Below, one piece after another: positions 5,967 to 22,656 of a DNA stretch of 27,517 nucleotides. The stretch is from Irineochytrium annulatum (lineage: Eukaryota; Chytridiomycota; Chytridiomycetes; Chytridiales; Chytridiaceae). Each line of letters opens with the position of its first letter. Within the stretch, counting starts at the first letter, position 1. The translations under genes were made by a program, and so were the position numbers. The notes under the pieces were generated by a model that was not told the DNA's origin, did not search any database, and worked only from the letters and a program-made list of their open reading frames with translations. The DNA is taken from positions 1-27,517 of the forward strand of contig JADGJL010000272.1 of assembly GCA_027600665.1 (NCBI GenBank). The letters run 5' to 3'.

Positions 5967-8900
5967 ATGATTGGGAGTATGCAGCAGCAGCCCGTCCTGA
6001 CCGAGATGCAAGTGGGGCAAGGTGGCGGGAGTGCTGGGGCGGACCTTGACCCGGACCTTTTCCAGACGCAGAAGTCGCAGGCCGGCGGCCAGAGTGGGGA
6101 GCATGGCATGTCGCCAGACGGGCACGGCACCGCGACGGATGCGCCCGCAGGCGATGTGGCTGACCACGGCGGCGAGGAAGAGGACGGCGGGGACGGCGAC
6201 GATGGGCCCAAGAAGAAACGCAGGAAGAAGGGAACCTCCTCGACCAAGAAGAAGTCGGGCTCGCGTTCGAAGGGCTCCAAGGCCAAGAGCGATACGGATG
6301 CCGCGTTATCCGCCATTGCCAAAACCCTCCTCCTTCCGACGCAAACCCCCACTGACGACCATCAGACCGAGGATGAGGACGGGAACGCAACCACAGCCAA
6401 CGTCAACGGCGAAGCAAGCGCGGCGAGCCCGGCCACCGATTCCGCAGCCTCTGCCGCTGCAGTACTCGCCGTCAGCGAGGCTAACCAACATCAACAACCC
6501 AACTTCCATCAACTCGCCCTCCAACAAGGTGATCCGCAAGGGCTCGTACTCCACTACCCCATGGCCAACGTCAACATGACCCCGGCCGATATCCTCGCCG
6601 CGTACCAGCTCCACGCCCAGCAAAACGCGCAATTCGGATATGGCCAGCAGTTTTTTCACCCGGGATTCCAGCAAGACGGCAACTCAACGCTGGATTCGCT
6701 GGCGGCCGCCGCGATCGCTGCGAGTCTCGGGAACGGCGGCGCTCCCCCGGACGCGCAACAACAAGCCATGTCGATGACACCTTTCCAAATGATGCACATG
6801 CAATGTGAGTTCTTTTATTTACTACCATGAGGCGTGTAGTATTCGTCTATTCGATCTGAGAGTACATACCAACGACACGCGTTTAGCTGCTGAGCAACAA
6901 CAGCAACTTCAACAACACTACCAGCAGCAACTTGTGCAGCTTCAGCAGCAAGCCGCCGGAGCCCCAACCGGTGCGGTGCAAGCCGTCGCAAAGGCTACTG
7001 ACGACAACGGCGATTCTACCGCGGCCGGAGGCACCAAGAAGCCGAGGCTTAGGACTTTTAAGTACACCGCTCCGCACGGTACGCTTTCAATAATTCGAGT
7101 ACGCCTAATTTACGGCACTGACGCTTGCATCTTATAGGTGAGGGCGAAACCTTCCATATGGGACCCCGTGACACGACGTGCTGCGTTCAGTGCAAGCATC
7201 TCGGTATCGGAGGCGAGAAGATTTGCGATCACGATATGAAGCGAGTTTTCTGCAAGCAGTGCAAGGCTCTCGGCATTGGCGGCCAGCATATTTGCGAGCA
7301 CGACAAGAAGAGGGACGAATGCAGGACCTGCAAGGCGCTCGGTACAGCCATGTTTTTGAAAATGCGACTGTTGTTTTGCCGCTATTTGCGTACTAATCTC
7401 CTTGTTCATTTAAGGCGTGGGAGGAGGAAAAATTTGCGATCACGATAAATGGAAGGACAAGTGCCGCGAGTGCCGCGCCCTTGGTATTGGCGGGAATTCC
7501 TTCTGCCAGCACGAGAAACGCCGTGACGATTGCAAGGAATGCAAGTCCCTCGGCATAGGTGGTGGAAACATCTGCGATCACGGCAAGATGAGGTATGTTT
7601 TACCAGGGCGGGTCATTTGAACGGTCCTGTTTTAAAGGTTTATATCTTAGGTATAAGTGCCAGACTTGCAAGTCACTCGGTGTCGGCGGACGCGGCCTCT
7701 GCCCGCACAACCTTAAGCGGACAGCGTGCTTTCAGTGCATCGCGATGGGTTTCGGATCCGGCTACCCGATGTGCGAGCACAACGCTAAACGCGCCAAATG
7801 CCGCCAGTGCAAGGCTATGGGGACTGGTGGTGAGGCTATCTGCGACCACAACAAAGTCCGGGCCCTTTGCAAGGAGTGCAAGAAGGCTGGCGACGTGGAG
7901 GATGAGGCCGGCTCCTCGGGCGTGACCATGAATGTTGACCTTGCTTCTGTCTGCGAGCACGGTTTGATAAGTAAGTTGATTGTAGTTGCGAGATTGCTCC
8001 GCCCACGGACTAAGCAATTTCTTTTGTAGAGGGGAATTGCCCGACGTGTCTCACTACTTTCGCTAACCAGGGCGGCGAGGAGACGGAGGACGAGCCCGAG
8101 GTCGATGTCACCTTGTTCCTTCGCCCGACAGCGAAGCGCAAGCACAAGCTCCTCCGCACTGAGACCCACCCGATCAAGCGCACGCGCGTCTGCCCCCACG
8201 GCTACCTCAAGCGTGACTGCTCGGACTGCAACGCCACCAACCTCGCCACCGGCGCCACGCACGTGTGCGAGCACGGCATGATCCGCGGCGTCTGCCCGAC
8301 CTGCCAGTCGAACCCAACTGCCTACCAGCCTCCTCCTCCGCCGCCGCCTTCATTCGACATGAAGGCTCTAAGTAACCGCGGGTACCGCCACGGCGACGAC
8401 GAGGAAGACGACGAGGGTCATGACGACGCCGAGTCTGCCGCCCACGACGCGACCCACCACCACATGAACGCCCCCGGCGCCCGTTGCGAGCACGACCGTC
8501 AGCGCAACTTTTGTACCGATTGCCTCCAGACCGGCCGGGGCGGTATTCATGTGTGCTCGCACGGAATTGCGCGGTATCAGGTAAGACTTCTATGGCTTTT
8601 GATATTGGCATCGAATCATTTCTAATCGTCGTTATTAAGTGCGCAGAATGTCGCTCCCACCTCGGCTGGGGCTCCGGAGGTAAGGCGGGCGGCGGCATCG
8701 ACGGGTCGGACGGCAACAGGCTCATGGACGCCGCTAGGGAGATGGTCGAGGCCATCAACGGTGCCGCGTCCGTCGGCGGCGGCCACGTCCTCGTCACGAG
8801 CGAGGGGACCAACGGGGGCGGCGTGTGTGTGCACGGGAAGGTGGCCGAGTGCGAGGAGTGCGCGTCGGCCGTCCTGGGGATGTACCTGAACATTGCAGGC

Positions 8901-9065
8901 AGTGGGGTCGCGAGCCCAGTGGAGCATGGCTCCCCGAAGGCCCCAGCCATTAGCTCGTCGAAGGGGAAGAAGAAGGAGAAGGAGTCAAAGGAGGCCTTAT
9001 GCCCTCACGGGAAAGGGCCTGGGAAGAGGTGCAGGGATTGCGTCATGTCGAGGAGGTCGAAGTGA
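5967..9065 (+). CDS. Nuclear-type protein with about 15 CxHx6CxxC zinc repeats
   Basis: Seven exons: 5967-6804, 6887-7078, 7138-7341, 7415-7592, 7651-7970, 8030-8580, 8640-9065; 902 residues, every junction in frame. Residues 1-80 are acidic and Gly/Asp-rich. Residues 81-110 are strongly basic (PKKKRRKKG, then KKKSGSRSKGSKAKS), a likely nuclear localisation signal. Residues 150-310 are Ala/Gln-rich, with a near poly-Gln run spanning exons 1-2. From residue 359 to the end there are about 15 overlapping units of form C-x2-C-x-x-L/M-G-x-G-G-x3-C-x-H-x6-C, so each CxH is followed six residues later by CxxC (for example CDHDMKRVFCKQC). Four ligands per unit fit one zinc ion. Units 1-8 are regular with the LGIGG spacer; later units are separated by longer linkers, including an acidic stretch and PPPPPPP. 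I do not recognise a named family; a DNA- or RNA-binding or transcriptional role is inferred from the basic, Gln-rich and zinc composition. The intron before exon 7 uses AAG at 8639, since the CAG 6 nt later would lose a CxxC. Confidence 0.85.
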
Positions 9066-9670: not shown

Positions 9671-12600
9671 ATGTTCTGCAAGCGGGTAGCGCCGATGGAC
9701 GCGGAGGATGTCCTTCTCCAAAAGATCCTCAGCATCGAGCAGGGCCGCGGGGAGGCGCATGAGAGGCTCGTGAAGGAGCTGCTTCTCCATCATCAGCGGT
9801 CACTCGCGGAGGTGCTAGCCTCTAAGGAGCGGGTCGCGCTGCAGGGGACCGGCCGCGATGTTAACGATAAGGCGATGATGGAGTGGCTCACCCGACGATT
9901 CGAGCAGCTGGAAGGGAAGATGGAGAAGATGGAGAGGGAAGTGGGTGCGCTGGCGAGGAATGTCGAGGTTATGGCCGAGGAGTTGCGGGGACGCCGTGTC
10001 GGTGGTGCGCGAGATTCAGGCGTTGAGGTCGGAACCGACCCTTCAGCTCAGCAGCCGCCGCAGTTCAAAAGGCAGGCAACCATGTCGTCCGCCGCGAGTG
10101 ACCCCGCGGCGATGCCGCGGCTGTCGACAGCCAGGGAGATAGCGAAGAAGGCCAGAACCGGCAGCGTTGCCACCTCAGGCGCTGGTACGGAGATCGCAGG
10201 ACATGATAAGGCATCGTTTGCATTCTATAGTATTATGCTGATGCAAAGTTAGGTATTTATCAGCTATTGCTGGCAAAACTCCAAGTGAGGATCGCGCTTT
10301 TTAAATTTTGCTCGTCGTCTGTCACTCTAATGTCGTTCAGGTCAGAGATGGAGAAGCAGATAGCCGCAAAAACTGCGGCGCCCTGGGCCGCTGCGACGGC
10401 TGGAACGTAAGTGTCAAGGCGTGACTTAGCTTTAGGGGCGCTGACAATCTTTGCAGCCATGACCCTCGAACCCTTGCGGCCCGACTTCGTGAGGCGCAGC
10501 TGATGCCGTGGCTGGATGTCGAGCAGCTTGGATATGGCCACCCCTTGCTCGACAGCCTCGCGGACGCGATCCGCGATGAGGCCGGCGTCGTCGTGGCGTA
10601 CATTAGTGACGAATACGCTGCGAGCGCTAACTGCATTAAAGAATTTCGCTTTGCAAAGAAGATGGGGTTGAGGATCGTTCCTGTGATTGGTATGTTGTGA
10701 AGGTCTTTAGAGTTTTCCTACATCAGCCTTCCTGACAGTCTCGTACAGTGGGATATTCCCATGCTCACCGGGAAGCTATCGCTGCCGACTTTAAGGCGGA
10801 AGGGATGTTCGCAAACAGAGTAGCGCCTCGACCATGGGAAGCAACGTGGCTAGGGATTGAAATTGCCGAAGAGCTGTGAGGAATGGTCATTATAAGCCTA
10901 CTTAACGTGGTATTTTAGCTGCATCGATGCACGCCATACGGACGATTTTGATAGGGTCTACGACAAAGTCCTGAAGGCGGTAAAAGCGGAGCTCGACCGG
11001 CGACAGTATATAGAGCAAATTGCAAAGGGTCCAAGCAGCGCCATTAATGACATTGTTGACGCTGTCTCGTCAAACAACCTCGAAGCCGTAAAACGTCTAC
11101 TTCAGAACCCGCTTGTGTTGGCAGCGCAGTACGGCAACGACCAGTCTATTCTGCATATCGCCGTTAAGCGCTCCAGCCTTGCGATTATAAAGGAGCTTGT
11201 TGCGGCAGCACCGTCGCTTATTTTGGCGGTAGACGCAAAGAAGAACACACCGCTCATTGACGCCGTTGAATTGGAAAAGAACCATGTCGTTCAGTTTCTC
11301 CTCGCCGAAGGATCAGACGTGAGAGCGCGAAATGCATACAATCAAACGCCGTTGCACTTCGCAGCAAGTAGGCATCTCAAAATTCCTTTGTCTATGTTGT
11401 ATCATTGTCCCTAACCCGGCCCCTCCTTGAAGACTTCGAGTCAACTTCTATCGCTTCCATTTTGCTCGATATGAAGCCGGATATCAACGCCACTGACCTC
11501 CGTAACGAGACGCCGCTCATTATTGCGGCGCGGCAGGACCGTCATCGGGTCGTCACTGAGCTGCTAAAGCGCGGGGCCGCCGTAAATACCGCAGACGATG
11601 CCGGGAACACGCCTCTGATTTTAGCGTGCCGGAAGGGTGATGTCGAGATGATCGCTATGCTTCTGGAATACAAGGCCTCTTTGACGCAAGCAAATGGCGA
11701 TGGCATGACTCCGTTGATTGCATGTTGCGCGTCGTATAGGTGCTCAAGAGCAATGGTGCAGAAGATACTAGAGCTATCTCCTGATTCGGTCGATATCGCC
11801 GACAAAACCGGCAGAACCGCTTTATTCCATTCGGTGCAAGTCTCAAACGCGGAGATCTTCGACCTGCTGCGCGGAAAGGCCCGCGTAGATGTCCTGACAA
11901 AGGAAAAGTGGAACCTTTTGCACGAAGCCGCCCGGCAAACTGACCCCGCGCTAGCTGCGGCGATCTATAACCTCCTAAAGCAGACGCCGTCATTCAGCAT
12001 CAACGCTATGACTCGTCGTCAGAGTACCGCCCTCCGCATAGCTGCTCACTACGACCGCAGCGAGACGGTTAAGTTTCTCCTCGATAACGGGGCGGACCCC
12101 TTTCTCCCGGACGCACACAACGTTAACCCCTTTATGGCCGCCGTCAATACCGATAGCACCGGTGTCGTCGGCCTCCTCCTAGACGTGATCGCCGGCCGAC
12201 CGGGGTCACAGCAGCACGACTTATTTCTGGTCGGCGAGGAGGCCCGTCGTGCGCTTCTCCTCTACGCCAGCGCGCGCGGGAGCACCACGACCGCACGATA
12301 TCTTGCCGAACGCTTCGGTTTCTCGGCACTCGATGCTTCGGCACCCATCCCGCGTCCCAGCGACCCCGCGTGCGCACGCATGTCGACCCTAAATCCATTG
12401 CTTGCCGCAGCTAGGTCCGGAAACCTCCCAATGATCTCTCGACTCCTGGCGGCCGGGTACGACGTGAACGCTGTCGACGACCACGGTGACTCTGCACTGT
12501 GCAATGCCATCTTTGGCGATCACGTGGATGCCGTGAAGATGTTGTTGGAATCTGGAGCCGACGTCGGAAATAGGAACCTCGCTGGCGACACTGCCGTGAA

Positions 12601-13102
12601 CCACGCTGCCGAGGTCGGGGACCACGACGGGGCCGTGAAAATTATGGAGATGCTTGCGGGGCGAGGCGCGGACCTCGGCGTCTGCGGGAGGAGTAACTGG
12701 ACGGCGCTTCATGCCGCGTGCAAGGGCGGGAACTTGGTGCTTGTGAAGTTTCTAATGGAGAGGAAGGTAGAAGTTGGCGTGAGGAATAAGGCGGGAAAGC
12801 TTCCTGTGGATTTGGTTAACCAGCAGTCGAGCGCCGGGAAGGCTATCAAGGCTTGGATAAACGGTCAAGCGATTGAAAACGGGGTGGTAGATGACAAGAG
12901 ACCGGCTAGGAGAGCGAGCCGGTCAAGGATGAGCAGGGCGCAACGAAGGATGTCTTCGTTGAGAGGGATCGCCGAATCACGAATCACGCCTGAACCTGCC
13001 AATATCGCGCCGTCCGTCGACGACACGGTCACCGCCTGCTCCCGTGACGATACCGCGTCTGAATTCAGTACATTAAAACGCCTTTCGAGTGTTTGCGACT
13101 AA
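9671..13102 (+). CDS. Coiled-coil/TIR/ankyrin-repeat protein, copy A
   Basis: Exons 9671-10210, 10253-10284, 10341-10406, 10457-10689, 10749-10875, 10919-11367, 11433-13102; 1038 residues. Residues 1-110 are helical and charged with coiled-coil character (RFEQLEGKMEKMEREVGAL), followed by a Ser/Ala-rich linker. The TIR domain covers about 178-330: first strand HDKVFISYCWQNSK, BB-loop region MPWLDVEQLG, VVVAYISDEYAAS, then S-A-N-C-I-K-E (Glu275 aligns with the catalytic Glu of TIR NADases) and GLRIVPVIG. From about 350 to 960 there are roughly 15 ankyrin repeats (NTPLILACRKGDVEMIAMLL is typical). The last 75 residues form a Ser/Arg-rich basic tail absent from copy B. No NB-ARC or NACHT P-loop is present. 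The start is supported by alignment with copy B (MFCKRVAP against MLRKRPAP). Intron 1 needs a GC donor (10211-10252). Likely role: NAD+-cleaving or scaffold signalling receptor, with ankyrin repeats sensing a ligand; inferred from domains only. Confidence 0.85.
10211..10252 (+). other. Predicted GC-AG intron within the TIR start
   Basis: The frame must pass from HDK (ending at 10210) to VFISYCW (starting at 10253), as in copy B, where the same junction uses AAG|GTGCGT. Here the donor reads AAG|GCATCG, one T-to-C change from GT, and the acceptor is GTTAG. If the intron is not removed the frame stops at 10250-10252 after 193 residues, before the TIR domain. Confidence 0.6.
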
Positions 13103-13326
13103 TTATGCGATAATTCTGCTTTTCTCTTCGGCGCCGTTCATTGGCATAGGTGGTCAACTTTGTAGAGCATTCATTAATCTTCTTCCCTTTCCGCCTGTGT
13201 ATTGGTAATGTAACGTCTTCTTAACCAACGTTCCTACGTAATGTAGTACGTCCCCTTCTATTGCAAATATACAATGAGTTTTATTATCCTGCCGAATAGC
13301 ACAAACGGTCTGTAGTAGTTCTGAAG

Positions 13327-16300
13327 TTACACCTCACGGCCGATTAACCAAGCCTTTAAGGTCTTCCCCACACTCGATAGCTCATTGACTAAATCCACCG
13401 CCAGCTTCCCCTCATCGTCCCTCGAACCGACGTCTGCCTTCTTGTCCACCAAAGCCTTGACGAGCTCTACATTCCCGCTGACGCACGCCTCATGAAGCGG
13501 CGTCCTACCCAGCTTTCCCCTAACACCCACATCCGCGCCGCCCGCGATCAGCACCTGCACGATCCCAACGGCCGCCTCGTGGTCCCTGACCCTAGCCGCG
13601 TGCAGCGCGGCTGTATCGCCATTTTGGTTTCGTAGCGCCACATCCGCTCCGGCTTCCAGCAGCGCCGACACGGCGTCCGCTTGTGCGCCGAAGACCGCCT
13701 TACAAAGCGCCGTGTTGCCGTGGTCGTCCAAAGCGTCGACGAAGTACCCGGCAGCCAGGAGCCGGGAGATCATTGGGAGGTTGCCGGCATAGGAGGCGGC
13801 GTGTAAAGGGTTCAGGGTCCGACGGCGCGCGCATGTCGCGTCGGCGGGCCGCGGGATCGGCACGGAGGCATCGCGTGTTGGGATATTGAAGCGGTGCGCG
13901 AGGTAGGCGGCGGTCTGGTCGCTCTCGCGCGCGCTGGCGTATAGGAGCAAGGCGTGCCTAGCCTCGTTGTCTGCGAGGTAGAAGGCATGTTGGGCCGTCC
14001 CAGGCCGGGAGGCGATGACGTCCAAAAGGAGCTTAACGACGTCGACGCTATCGGAGTTGATGGCGGACACGACCGGTTCGACGTTATACACATCCGGCAG
14101 GAAGGGGTCAGCGCCGTTGTCGAGCAGGAATTTGACCGTGTGGATGCGGCCGTGGAAAGCACCGATTGCAAGAGCGGTCCGTTTGCGGTGAGTAACGGCG
14201 TTTATGGAGAAGGGGCTTGTTCGCTTCAACTGTTCGAACACCTTTTCAGCAAGCGCAGTGTCGCTCTGCTTTGCGGCGTGGTGAAGGAGGTTCCACTTAT
14301 TCTTCGTCACGACTTCGATCTTGGCCTTCCCGAGCAGCAGTTCGAATATCTCGTTATTCGACATCTGCACCGAGTATGCGATCGCCGTCATGCCCGCGTT
14401 ATCGGCGGCGTCGATGGTCTGAGAGCACCAATCTAAGATCTTCTGCACGATCGACGTAGTGCTCCTCAACGAAGCACAGCATGCCATTAACGGCGTTTCG
14501 CCAGTTTTGTTCGTTTGCATCAACGAGGCATTGCTTTTCAGGAGCATGTTAAACATCTCGGCGTCACCTTTCCGAGAAGCGAGAATTAAAGGCGTGTTCC
14601 CGTCGTCATCTGTTGTAGAAACGTCGGCCCCATGCTTTAACAGCTCAACCATGACCTGAAGACGGTCCTGCTTTGCGGCGATAATGAGCGGCGTCTCATG
14701 ACGAAGGTCCAATGCGTTGACGTCCGGTTTTGCATCGAGTAACTTCGAAGCAACAGAAATCGCCTCGAAGTCTGTTTTCGCATTAATTCGCCTTAAGGCT
14801 CGTTGCACCATAAAACGAGATTACGTACTTGCTGCTAAGTGCAACGGTGTTTGGCCATAGGAATTCTGGGCCCTGACGTCTGCTCCCTCTGCGAGTAAAA
14901 ACTCCACGACGTCTGTCTTTTCAAAATCCACCGCATCAAAGAGCGGTGTGTCTCCCCTGGCATCTATCGCCTCAATCAGCGAAGGGTCCGCCGCGACGAG
15001 CTCCTTGACAATCACCAAAGCAGACCGCTGGACGGCGATATGGAGAATCGACTGGCCTTCGTCATATTTCATTGACAACACTTGCTGATTCTGAAGCAGG
15101 CGCTTGACAGCCATGAGGTCGTTTGATGAAACGGCGTCAACGATGTTATTTGTAACGTTGCTTGGACTCGTTGCGATCGGCTCCATATGTCGGCGATCGA
15201 GCTCCGCCCTGACAGTTTTAATGATGGCTCCGTAGAGCTCCTCTATGTTGTCGGTAGAGCGTGCATCAATGTAACTGTCAATACATTACTAAATGAGCAG
15301 CACGGGGAAAAATGTCCTACAGCTCTTCGGAAATTTCCATGCCCAGCCACGTCTGCTCCCATGGTCGATGGGGTTTCCTGCTCCCGAACAAGCCCCCTAT
15401 TTTCTGCAACCATTCCTGGTGGCTAATGATCGATCGCATCCGTCGTAGCCATGAAGGAAGCCGCCCTGCCGCGCCATCGTGATCCGCCCGACTGTAATTG
15501 GCGGCGATTGCTTCCCGCTCCTCAACGGAATACCCAACTGTAAAATTTTTTAAGAATAATATCCGACACCGCACGAGAGAATTGCACACGTACCGATAAC
15601 GGGTACGATCTTTAAACCCAGCTTCTTTGCAAACTGAAATTCTTTCCTGCAGTTAGTGCTCGCGGCGTACTCGTCGCTGATGTGCGCGACGACGACGCCA
15701 GCTTCATCCCGTAGGGCGTCCGCTAGGCTATCGAGCAACGGGTGGCCGAAGCCAAGCTGGTCGACGTCCAGCCATGGCATTAGTTGCTCCTCGCGAAGTC
15801 TACTAGCGAGAGCTCGGGGGTCGTGCCTGTAGAAGCCTTGTTAAATGACAAAAGAATCCACTATAGCTTACTTTCCGGCCGTCTCCGCAGCCCAGGGAGG
15901 AGCTGCTTTTGCGGCCACTTGTTTTTCCATCTCCGATCTGGCGGTCCATTACAAATAAGATTGCTGTCGCAACACAAGTACGTGCGCAGGCACCCACCTG
16001 GAGTTTAGCCAGCAATAACTGATGAACACCTTGTTATCCATAAGCATGACGTTTGCAGTCCGCACCAACTGAGACGCACCTTGTCATGTCCCGCTGTCCC
16101 CGGATCAGCTTCTAAAGTTGTCGCGCTGCCCGTGTGAGCCTTCTTGGAAACCTTCCGTTGTGCATTTTCCCAACCCGTCGCCAGTTTCGGCACAACCGAT
16201 AGCTCGGCCACGTCTGAAATCGTTGCAACCGTCGCCTTCCTCTTAAATTGCGGCCACCGCTGAACTGAAGCATCTGCAGCCGCAATCGCAACACCGGAAT

Positions 16301-16634
16301 CCCTCACATCACCACCGCGGTCGACCCGTAACTCCTCAGCCAATGCTTCGACCTTCCTCGCCAGCGCACCCATATCCTTCTCCATCCTCCCCTCAAGCTG
16401 TTCGAACCGTTTCTCGAGCCACTCAATAACGGTAGCGCTGTCGTTCACGCCCGGAGCCGCCTCTTGCAGTCCGACCCGCTCTTGGAACGCCAGCACCTCC
16501 ACAAGCGACCGCTGCTGATGGAGAAGCAGCTCCTTCACGAACCGCTCCTGCGCCTCCTCGCGACCTTTCTCGATGACGAGTATCTTTTGGATGATGGCGT
16601 TCCGCTCCCCAGGTGCTGGCCGCTTGCGGAGCAT
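13327..16634 (-). CDS. Coiled-coil/TIR/ankyrin-repeat protein, copy B
   Basis: Exons (minus) 16634-16080, 16029-15998, 15937-15872, 15826-15594, 15537-15321, 15274-14829, 14771-13327; 997 residues, all introns GT-AG. It has the same order as copy A: N-terminal coiled coil (RFEQLEGRMEKDMGALARKV), linker, TIR domain and about 15 ankyrin repeats. TIR motifs are HDKVFISYCWLNSR, MPWLDVDQLG, VVVAHISDEYAAS, S-T-N-C-R-K-E (Glu280 is the putative catalytic residue) and GLKIVPVIG. Exon 5, which follows the fourth TIR strand, is 90 nt longer than in copy A and inserts about 30 basic/aromatic residues near 312-345. The protein ends just after the last ankyrin repeat (KAWLIGREV) without copy A's basic tail. 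The ankyrin part keeps consensus TPLIIAA/LLKHGADV helices but differs at many surface-loop positions. Convergent orientation means overlapping 3' UTRs, hence antisense pairing, are possible. Function is inferred as for copy A. Confidence 0.88.
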
Positions 16635-18594: not shown

Positions 18595-20522
18595 TCACGC
18601 CCAAATCTTCATCAACCCGTCATGCACATCCATCGCCGCCGCAACCTCCACCGACGCGGTTCTAACGAGCGATGGCTCCGGGAAAAGCTCCACGTCGGCC
18701 TTGCAAACGGTCCCAACCTCAGGAACGACGCCGTCGACAAACAGGTCACGGACGGCCGCGATGGTGCAGGCGGACGGCTGCGCTAGCGAGCAGTGGCCGA
18801 CCCCGATCTGCTTTAGGAGCACAGCATTCGCGGATGTTAGCTCGCGATATACGACCTGCGCGCTGTCGATAGGCGTCACGTTGTCAAGGGTATTGGTCAA
18901 AATGAGGATCTATTTAAACATTAGAACGACCGCGCCTTTCGGAGCGAAAATCGATAAATACCTTGTTCTTCATATTCTTTCCCCAAGGGCCCGTGTACCT
19001 CTCAGCGGGCCGAATGTTCCAGTGCCTGCATATAAGACCGAGGTATGTCCAACCTCGCCCCGCAACGGGGTTCATCCCCGACATAACGCCAGCTACCTCG
19101 TCCCATTCCGCCAGCGAGATGTTCCTGACGTCGTCACCGTCGTTGCACTTGACGACGTTGAAGCCGTTCTCGCCCGAATTGTCCGTGAGCGGGCAGTAGT
19201 CGTCTGGCTTGGCGCCTGTCAGATCCTTCAGCTCGGTCGGATCGCCCTTCACGGCAGCGGCGATGGCGGACGCGACTGTCGGCCACGAGGATGGGCTGTA
19301 GCCCATCCCAAACAGGACCGCCTGCAGATTTGCGGCAGTTAGAACGCCGGGAAGCTTGGCGTTGGGAGCGGGCATTGGTTGCTTCTCGAGCTGCTTGCGG
19401 AGGGAGGTGATGAGGTCCATGACGGTGCCGTTGCCACGGAGCGATGCCAACGCGCATCGAGAGCTGCCGGCGAGCTCGCACGAGGAGCCGAAGAGGTTGT
19501 TGACTTCATTGTTGTACACAAGGGAGGTGAGGGACCAGTCGAGATATACTCCGCTAAACGTAAACGGGTCCGTCACCCCGTCGATGATGAAGCGGCCGAC
19601 ATGGTTCGGGAACATGTTGGCATACGTAATACCAAGGAAACTTTTTCGGGTCGACAACTTTAGTCAGCCTCTGCCATGCATCGAGTGAATTGTACTCACG
19701 TGCCATACGAGAACCCCCAGTAGTTCATCTCCTTCATGCCGAGCATCTCCCTGATCAGATCCATGTCCCTGGCCGTGTACGCCGTCGAAACATACTGAAT
19801 GAAATCGCCATCATTCTTCTCGCAACCGGCCGCCCGTACTTTGACCCACGCGTCATACGCCTCCGATCTCGTGTCATATGTCATCGTGAAGGCGTCCAAG
19901 CTTGGAGCGGTGGCGTAGTGCTCGTGCACGCTGGCGCTACATCGAACGGAACGCGATCGGGCGATGCCGCGGGGGTCGAACCCGACGATGTCGTGTTGAC
20001 CGCCCGTGACGATGGAGAGCTTAGGGCCGTAGTGCTTGACCATGTCGACACCAGAGCCACCGGGACCGCCGCTGTTCTCGAGATGTTAAAATCGCCAGAG
20101 GACCGTAGATGAGACTTACGGGTTGATAAGGATTGAGCCGAGATGCGGCTCCTTCGTAGCCGGGAACCGGATGAGAGCTATAGCGATCGTCCGCGTGTCG
20201 TTCGTGCTGAAGGAACGGAGATAAGCAACGGACACCGTTGAGGCAGTCCCGACCTGAGATGGTCCAGGGGCACATCAATCGACCCGCAATGCATGCCCTC
20301 CATGTCACCACAGGGCTTCCATAGCGTCTCGGCCTCGGGAGCCGGCTCGCGACTGCGTACCAGGCCGATCGGGGACACGATCAGGGCGACGACCACGGCG
20401 AGGGTCAAGGCGACGGCCGTGAACTGTAGACAGCGACGGTTGCCGTGACGAGTGGCAGCATCCGGGTCAGCCGCGGCGACCCGTGGAAGGAGCGGCTGGC
20501 GGTCCTCAACAGTTGACGGCAT
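18595..20522 (-). CDS. Membrane-anchored S33/TAP-like alpha/beta hydrolase
   Basis: Exons (minus) 20522-20254, 20206-20120, 20071-19700, 19640-18962, 18909-18595; 573 residues. The N-terminus is cytosolic with an acidic dileucine motif (D-R-Q-P-L-L, 7-12), then one transmembrane segment (about 32-54), so it is a type II protein; the dileucine suggests endosomal/vacuolar sorting (inference). The ectodomain follows the tripeptidyl-aminopeptidase/TAP-like pattern: GSIDVPLDH, LINPGGPGGSG (oxyanion region), DIVGFDPRGIARS, nucleophile elbow GFSYGT (Ser240), an inserted helical cap, and a C-terminal TAP-like block with Asp478 (NTLDNVTP) and His508 (VGHCSL). The full catalytic triad is therefore present, consistent with release of short peptides or cleavage of small ester/amide substrates. 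The cap carries several Cys residues probably in disulfides. The stop lies 172 nt upstream of the DOMON gene start on the same strand. A decayed tandem copy lies immediately upstream. Confidence 0.88.
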
Positions 20523-20715
20523 CAGGAGAGTAACTTTCGTGGAGACGTTATCAGAGTACCTCGCCGGTTTCCCAACTCAACCACACTGGAAGGCCCACTG
20601 GCTTAATTTCATCAGCTAGTTCGTCAATGCGTAGATCGTGCATTAAAATAGCGCATTAAGGCCCATAAAGAAAGGAGAAAGGATGAGGCTAACAGAAGAG
20701 CAAATACAGTCGAGG

Positions 20716-22656
20716 TTATGACCTCAACGATCCCATATTCAGCCTAACCCCCCAATTCTTCGCCAAGCCCTGATGTGCTTCCAACGCTGCTGTAATCGAT
20801 GCCGACGCGGACCGGACCAGCGACGGCTCCGGGAATAACTCGACGTCGGCCTTGCATACAGTTCCGACCTCCGGCGTCACACCGTTGACGAACAGGTCCC
20901 GAACGGCTTCGAGCGTGCACTCGGACGGCTGTGCAAGCGAACAATGGCCGGTTCCGACGTGCGTCAAGAGCGCTGCGTTGGCCGACGTGAGCTCACCGTA
21001 TACGATTCGCGCGCTGTCGATAGGTGACACATTGTCTAGCGTGTTGGCTAAAATGAGAATCTGATCGGAAGAAAGCATGCGGTGTTAGGATGGAGACGAA
21101 CGTGGACCAATACTCTACTTTGTTTTTCATGTTGTTCCCCCAAGGACCAGTATATCTCTAAACGGGCCTGATGTTCCAATGCCTGCAAGTGAGCCCCATA
21201 TAAGTCCACCCTCTCTCCGCCCATGGGGCTAAGCTCCTGCATCTCGCCGGCGACCTCAGCCCACTCTGACAGCGAGACGCTCCTAACGTTGTCCCCGTCG
21301 TTGCACTTGTAGACCAGAAAACCGTTCTCGCCCGAAGTGTCCGCGAGCGGGCAAAAGGCGTCCGGCTCGGCGCCCGTTAGGTCTCTAAGCGCGGTGGCGT
21401 CACCATTCACGGCTGTGGCGACAGCCGAGGCGACGTCTGGCCACGACGACGGGTTATATCCCATCTCGAACAGAATTGCCTGCAGATTTGAGGCAGTTAG
21501 GATGCGTGGCAGCCTGGCGTTGGGAGCGGGCATCGGTTGTTTGTCGAGCTGCTCAATGAGAGAGGCGATTAGCTCCGCTACAGTACCGTTGCCGCGAAGC
21601 GATGCCAGCGCGCATCGGAAGCCACCGGCGAGCTCGCACGCAGAGCCGAAGAGACGGTAGACGTCGTCGTTATAAGTAAGGGAGCTTCGAGACCAGGCGA
21701 GAGATGATCCGCTGAATGTGAAAGGATTTGTAGCCCCGTCAATGACGAAACGATCGACGCGCCCCGGGAACATGTTAGCATACGTTAAACCCAGGAACCT
21801 GTTCACATTCGTCAAACTGACATCGACGCTTCGAATCTTGTAAAATCCGGGAAGCACTCACGTGCCGTAAGAAAAACCCCAGTAGTTCAACTCCTCCATT
21901 CCGAGCTTCTCCCTGATGAAATCCATGTCCCTGGCCGTGTACGCCGTCGAGATGTATTTGATGAAGTCTGAGTCATTCTTCTCGCACCCGGTCGCCCTGA
22001 CGTTAACCCACGCGTCTAACGCCTCCGGCGCTGTCTTGTAGGTCATCGCGTGAGGGTCCAAGTTCTGGGCCGTAGCAGAGTGCTCGCGAGCGCTAGCGCT
22101 GCACCGCACGGACCGTGACCGAGCGATTCCTCGAGGGTCGAACCCGACGACATCATGCTGGCCCCCAGTGATGGTGGAAAAATGGCGGCCGATGCTCTCC
22201 ACCTTGTCGACGCCCGAGCCGCCGGGACCGCCCCTGTTAGTAAACGAGATGTTCACTCGCGTCAACAGAAAGTACGTCCTCACGGGTTGATTAATATTGA
22301 GCCCAGATACGGCTCTTTGGTGGCGGGGAACCGGATCAACGCGTCCGCGTGTCGTTTGCGCTAAAGGAACTAAATTAGCATCGGACTACCCTTGAGGCGG
22401 TTCTTCACCTGAGATGGTCCAGTGGCACATCAATCGACCCGCAATCCATGCCCTCAACGCCGACGCAAGGCCTCCACAACGTCTCGGGCTCGGCGACCGG
22501 CTCACGGCCACGGCCGATGGGAGATACGAACAGCGCGACCACGGCGCCCAATGTCAGGGCGACGGCCGTGAACTGTAAGCATCGGCGGTTGCGGCGAAGG
22601 GCGTCGGCACCCCTGTAGGCCCGAGGGAGGAGGGGCTCGCGTTCGTCCACCTGCAT
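20716..22656 (-). pseudogene. Decayed tandem copy of the S33/TAP-like hydrolase
   Basis: Exon-equivalents (minus) 22656-22409, 22360-22284, 22233-21862, 21798-21119, 21060-20716, all with usable splice sites. It retains the dileucine motif (E-R-E-P-L-L), the membrane segment, GGPGGSG, GFSYGT and the Asp/His block (NTLDNVSP, GTGHCSL). Three lesions appear against the intact neighbour. In exon 2, ten bases are missing between CCGGAT and CGTCCGCG (+ strand, about 22336-22340), so the frame meets TGA at once. In exon 4, one extra base near 21215-21230 shifts the frame before the WTY motif. Downstream in that exon GAG has become TAG (about 21159-21161). Uncorrected, the exon 4 frame ends at 21048 without the Asp and His of the triad. 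Skipping exon 2 would not repair exon 4. Codons elsewhere remain well conserved, so inactivation may be recent. Sequencing error is unlikely to explain all three. Confidence 0.8.

Follow-up and report, generated by a model that had tools for sequence, protein, structure and literature searches.

TIR domains are immune-signalling modules in animals, plants and bacteria. In fungi, intracellular recognition has been described mainly through HET, NACHT or NB-ARC proteins; a 2022 review associates fungi with HET, a TIR-like domain (PMC9153377). The architecture closest to that of the two genes described here is documented for some oomycetes, whose ankyrin-TIR proteins are named as uncharacterised members of a "TIR plus repeat" group by Lapin et al. 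2022 (PMC9153377), and for several choanoflagellates, in which Ank is among the TIR-associated domains (PMC6040629). TIR in fungi receives one line in PMC7075850, TIR is reported in NLRs of Chytridiomycota (PMC9815663), and TIR_2 is recorded in some fungal proteomes (PMC4102429); one survey finds no NLRs among the early-branching fungi, chytrids included, that it covered (PMC4986451), and another finds no PF01582 TIR in its fungi (PMC2939053). An earlier note on the present DNA, made from its letters alone, had called TIR domains sparse in fungi. These records make the argument from rarity weaker than claimed, with TIR plus ankyrin known from choanoflagellates and oomycetes and TIR_2 from some fungal proteomes. 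We analysed contig JADGJL010000272.1 (C295) of Irineochytrium annulatum (assembly GCA_027600665.1, 26.9 Mb in 1082 contigs); the window is this whole contig of 27,517 bases. It carries two genes, here called A and B, that join a TIR domain directly to an ankyrin array and belong to a TIR-ankyrin family with at least seven loci in the genome. The TIR-plus-repeat architecture is already known. No report of a fungal TIR-ankyrin protein or family was found in the literature searched, outside which most subscription journals lie.

A and B lie tail to tail with 224 bp between their stops, and encode 1038 and 997 amino acids, respectively (Table 1). Both spliced models remain open across seven exons, with lengths of 540/32/66/233/127/449/1670 nucleotides in A and 555/32/66/233/217/446/1445 nucleotides in B. 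Exons 2, 3 and 4 are equal in length in the two genes, and the length differences of exons 1, 5, 6 and 7 are multiples of three. The introns span 42–65 nucleotides and 11 of the 12 are GT-AG; the remaining one, intron 1 of A, is GC-AG, with AAG at the exon end followed by GCATCG. The two proteins are 60.6% identical by blastp. The earlier note had placed two full-length TIR-ankyrin genes here, and its coordinates proved exact to the base.

The Pfam model TIR_2 matches A with 42.4 bits (E 1.2e-10) and B with 38.7 bits (E 1.7e-9), against a cut-off of 28 bits, and Ank_2 is strong in both (E 1.7e-65 in A and 2.9e-68 in B). When six family members are aligned, all six match TIR_2 (E up to 0.01; best E 1.7e-14) and four match PF01582. 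The TIR of A extends over approximately residues 177–361. In both proteins, the TIR_2 match begins at profile position 15, and Pfam misses the upstream start VFISYCW(Q/L)NS, which forms the first TIR strand and is encoded by a separate 32-nucleotide exon 2 in both genes. The corresponding 32-nucleotide exon is present in a third copy, on contig C118. The spacing from NS to (D/E)PR after this strand is 24 residues in the six aligned members; in the TIR of locus C258 of the same genome, the first strand is far closer to the first helix. A search of PDB sequences with a profile of the six TIRs returned 26 rows at E up to 10, of which we take 25 to be TIR proteins. Six of these rows pass an E limit of 0.001, namely Cat1, Roq1 (two), AT1G72930 and RPS4 (two), with the best value, 1.6e-5, for Cat1. 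The best PADLOC models are TIR effectors as well (SAVED-TIR and short-Argonaute-type TIR), matched by all six members with a best value of 1.2e-6. The predicted structure of exon 4 alone, the only TIR exon modelled, gave uninformative structural matches, and hhalign of the TIR against three other TIRs gave weak alignments.

The alpha-C Cys and Glu of the TIR core (residue numbers in Table 1) are invariant in each of the six aligned members. The Glu aligns with the second E of CLEEL in Roq1, counted as residue 86, which we take to be the catalytic residue of that protein. In RPS4, Glu88 is essential for NAD+ hydrolysis, and the nearby Cys is important for the synthesis of 2',3'-cyclic nucleotide monophosphates (PMC9153377). 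On the alignment, A and B carry the conserved alpha-C Glu expected of an NADase-type TIR, the activity itself being predicted.

A genome-wide search with a codon pattern for VFISYCW, allowing up to two mismatches, identified 12 places, seven of them exact, while the reversed pattern used as a control identified one. The seven exact loci lie on six contigs (two in the window, the others on C118, C524, C8, C572 and C1039), and every one of them runs into ankyrin repeats, as evidenced by Pfam on A, B and the open reading frames (ORFs) of the other five. The C572 locus (L021:3952-7902) is a broken copy, in which the middle of the TIR is lost, out of frame, and the downstream ankyrin frames persist. 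Contig C69 carries a TIR-ankyrin locus that is more distantly related (L013:3300-5445); its TIR scores 22.7 bits, under the 28-bit cut-off, and an Ala replaces the candidate catalytic Glu. By its sequence, this locus is possibly an inactive relative.

Over aligned codons, A, B and the C118 copy are pairwise 62–64% identical. Nei-Gojobori counts over 958, 943 and 943 codons (A/B, A/C118 and B/C118) give whole-protein synonymous divergences (dS) of 1.18, 1.33 and 1.13, which are rough figures because they are above 1 and near saturation, and nonsynonymous divergences (dN) of 0.255, 0.263 and 0.244. Between A and B the ratio of the two (omega) is 0.13 over the TIR as a whole and 0.07 within its exon-4 core, against 0.22 over the ankyrins and 0.29 over the N-terminal region. 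Judged from these codon counts, all three copies are under purifying selection, the TIR more so than the ankyrins. A tree of nine TIR cores places A, B and the C118 copy together (0.885) and C524, C8 and C1039 together (0.902); it joins A with the C118 copy with weak support (0.731), whereas TIR identity favours B and the C118 copy (82%, versus 73–74% for the other two pairs). A recent tandem duplication giving rise to a partner pair was considered and rejected, as the three copies lie at much the same distance from one another and the tail-to-tail pair is consequently no fresh duplication. The earlier note had read "two partners or two specificities" from this layout; given that equal distance and the single VFISYCW place on C118, we do not retain the suggestion. 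A viral or bacterial origin was likewise set aside. The six-member TIR profile gave 77 pattern stretches in the viral_contigs set and 76 in the genome_contigs set, with 0 confirmed in either, scans that speak only for relatives close enough to share short patterns.

The ankyrin arm was examined by several means. A crude consensus scan of A finds 11 repeats; the best score from 200 shuffles of A residues 1–360 is 30, and two of the 11 repeats score lower (17 and 26) and one equals it. AlphaFold2 models exon 7 of A as a helical repeat with a predicted local distance difference test (pLDDT) score of 77.1, model residues 481–555 being under 50, and the tail of A, residues 964–1038, is of low confidence (pLDDT under 50) and absent from B. 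Foldseek of the model returns designed and human ankyrins as its best matches (best E 1.8e-21). By count, the model contains 13–14 helix pairs, and three to four further repeats are encoded upstream, so that the earlier estimate of about 15 repeats is a fair one. In A, B and the C118 copy, the repeat consensus positions 4, 6, 9, 21 and 22 are identical in 9–10 of 11 repeats, and positions 1, 2, 3, 16 and 29 in 1–3 of 11. The conserved positions are those of the ankyrin core, and the variable ones lie at loop tips and exposed sites. Positive selection on the ankyrins was considered and not found at the level of the array, with omega at 0.20–0.24 across its whole length. The "diverged ankyrin surfaces" of the earlier note therefore stand as a description of variable loop-tip and exposed positions and not as a mark of positive selection.

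The Pfam scan of spliced A and B at E up to 0.001 reports TIR_2 and ankyrin-type models only, with no match to NB-ARC, NACHT, LRR, SAM or ARM. A and B are thus proteins of the ankyrin-TIR, or "TIR plus repeat", architecture and not NLR or STAND proteins, and the direct coupling of TIR to ankyrins in the absence of a STAND ATPase, as first noticed from the letters, is borne out in a genome with fungal markers. Like the oomycete ankyrin-TIR and choanoflagellate TIR-Ank proteins, they join TIR to ankyrin repeats. Set against the descriptions of those proteins, to which our comparison is limited, A and B differ in belonging to a fungal genome and to a family of at least seven loci there; the TIR placed ahead of the ankyrins, the 24-residue spacing from NS to (D/E)PR and, for A, B and the copy on C118, the mini-exon for the first strand are further features of the family. 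With the plant TIR-NB-LRR proteins Roq1 and RPS4 and with SARM1 they have in common the TIR profile and the conserved Glu, and the Cys as in plant TIRs, but they lack any NB-ARC, LRR, SAM or ARM match, carry an ankyrin arm instead, and do not have the TIR at the N-terminus. Fungal NLR-like proteins with HET or TIR-like domains are likewise fungal and combine a TIR-clan or TIR-like domain with repeats (PMC9815663, PMC4986451); unlike them, A and B contain no NACHT or NB-ARC. An ORF on contig C388 of the same genome (L019:1627-6271) fits that class better: its TIR_2 match precedes NPHP3_N (6.6e-28) and a NACHT match below threshold, and the next ORF has WD40-type and ankyrin matches; on these domain matches, C388 is an NLR-like TIR locus.

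We tentatively read A and B as soluble intracellular TIR-ankyrin sensors that act as clustering-activated TIR enzymes, a reading that we hold at just under an even chance. The ankyrin arm would hold or detect a ligand or partner protein, as a sensor or an anchor, and the N-terminal helical region would aid clustering of the protein. Clustering would unite the TIR domains and lead to NAD+ cleavage or a nucleotide second messenger, as with plant, SARM1 and bacterial TIRs, from which the mechanism is taken over. For A and B we infer solubility, location, clustering, enzymatic activity, ligand sensing and a defence or self/non-self role; the defence role is plausible from the company that such domains keep elsewhere. 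A wider proposal, which we consider doubtful, is that these are lineage-own, expanded fungal TIR-ankyrin receptors with ankyrin sensing, a TIR enzymatic output and no STAND switch, which together with TIR-NACHT genes would form a plant-like TIR immune repertoire. With a multi-copy TIR-ankyrin family that carries a catalytic-type motif, and a TIR-NACHT ORF in the same genome, fungal TIR enzyme signalling would become testable, as would the question of whether a repeat arm alone can gate a TIR.

Several results weigh against the sensor-enzyme reading. With A alone (residues 1–361) as the query, zero TIR matches are found in PDB at E up to 1, and the evidence for the TIR thus depends on profiles. 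The N-terminal coiled coil, which the earlier note had ascribed to both genes, was measured with a home-made heptad score against 500 shuffles. None of the 500 shuffles reaches the score of A and 7 reach that of B, making a coiled coil plausible in these two, but in the paralogs the score is reached by 146 (C118), 165 (C572), 25 (C524), 48 (C8) and 54 (C1039) of 500, and a coiled coil across the whole family is only weakly indicated. A genome search with exon 1 of A at E up to 0.01 gives three matches, A, B and the C118 copy, so the N-terminal sequence is particular to that group. Finally, the neighbourhood offers no pointer to defence, as the ORFs around A and B in the window match an Arf-family GTPase, PPR repeats, alpha/beta-hydrolases and a proteasome subunit.

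The main rival holds that the TIR is a non-enzymatic scaffold, comparable to MyD88 and the Toll-like receptors, that recruits TIR proteins of the same cell while the ankyrin arm sets location. We judge this rather unlikely, considering that all six aligned members keep the C-x-x-E motif and that the PDB sequences passing E 0.001 are Cat1, Roq1, AT1G72930 and RPS4, with no Toll-like receptors among them. In its favour, the genome has differently built TIR genes as possible pairing partners, and TIRs that assemble are not all enzymes (PMC9153377). A different kind of rival accepts the architecture and assigns A and B to development, stress or cell-fusion signalling, with no defence role. This seems to us improbable, although none of the neighbours named above points to defence and the three close copies, long diverged and under constraint (dS 1.13–1.33 over the whole protein), are not fast-evolving; the family size and the variable ankyrin surface positions fit recognition equally well, and neither is decisive.

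It is very improbable, in our estimation, that either gene, or both, is a copy in decay or that the contig comes from a contaminating non-fungal eukaryote. The GC donor at intron 1 of A would fit decay, as would the loss of part of the TIR at C572, one of the seven loci, but both frames are open over seven exons and omega is low. Ankyrin-TIR proteins are reported for oomycetes and the assembly is in 1082 contigs, which would allow for contamination; the family, however, lies on six contigs of a genome with fungal marker families.

Table 1. Positions of genes A and B and their parts in the window.
Feature	Position	Strand	Content	Basis
Gene A (ATG to stop)	9671..13102	+	N-terminal helical region, TIR, ankyrin array	spliced model, Pfam, purifying selection versus B and C118 copy
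Gene A exons	9671-10210, 10253-10284, 10341-10406, 10457-10689, 10749-10875, 10919-11367, 11433-13102	+		
Gene B (ATG to stop)	13327..16634	-	architecture as A	spliced model, Pfam
Gene B exons	16634-16080, 16029-15998, 15937-15872, 15826-15594, 15537-15321, 15274-14829, 14771-13327	-		
Exon 1 of A	9671..10210	+	possible coiled coil	genome search, heptad score
Exon 1 of B	16080..16634	-	possible coiled coil	genome search, heptad score
Intron 1 of A	10211..10252	+	42 nucleotides, GC-AG; retention gives in-frame stop ahead of TIR	model and ORF list
Mini-exon 2 of A	10253..10284	+	32 nucleotides, VFISYCWQNSK, first TIR strand	in-frame splice
Mini-exon 2 of B	15998..16029	-	32 nucleotides, VFISYCWLNSR, first TIR strand	in-frame splice
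Exon 4 of A	10457..10689	+	TIR core, candidate catalytic C272-x-x-E275	TIR_2 match, invariant Cys/Glu
Exon 4 of B	15594..15826	-	TIR core, candidate catalytic C277-x-x-E280	TIR_2 match, invariant Cys/Glu
Exons 6-7 of A	10919..13102	+	ankyrin array (approximately residues 374-960) and tail 964-1038	Pfam, AlphaFold2 and Foldseek of exon 7
Exons 6-7 of B	13327..15274	-	ankyrin array	Pfam

The genome is fungal by its marker families. Chitin_synth_1 has six genome matches (best 2.0e-60) and Fungal_trans 27 (best 7.5e-32), both with 0 of 14 prokaryote controls matched, and we take these two families to be fungus-specific; Chitin_synth_2 has 23 matches (best 7.1e-232), with 4 of 14 controls matched. 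An exon-by-exon search for the flagellar IFT57 gave no genome match, its controls matching only under the cut-off, and HET gave no genome match in a search that was silent on its controls too and cannot establish absence. At an E limit of 0.001, TIR_2 matches 11 places in the genome, of which 10 also pass the cut-off; PF01582 is found at two places, one of them over it. NPHP3_N is found at 12 places, 11 over the cut-off and mostly as short stretches, but it matches 9 of 14 prokaryote controls and so carries little information beyond C388. The scanned ORFs of C258 and C184 show TIR alone around the TIR. An ORF of C478 has TIR_2 and a Sel1 match, and the TIR loci of C478 (L015:3943-5220) and C118 (L016:4035-7237) are related, being 73% identical over one stretch.

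Elsewhere in the window, a Cys/His motif (C-x-H followed by C-x-x-C type) recurs in several ORFs on the plus strand at 7122-9065, two pieces of which were scanned with no Pfam match. On the minus strand at 18595-22385, two consecutive ORF sets both match Abhydrolase_1 and the TAP-like Abhydrolase_4, and represent tandem related hydrolase genes. The proteasome alpha-1 exon in the window matches PSMA1-type chains, presumably mammalian, at the head of its list with 166.6 bits, versus 122 bits for yeast PRE5.

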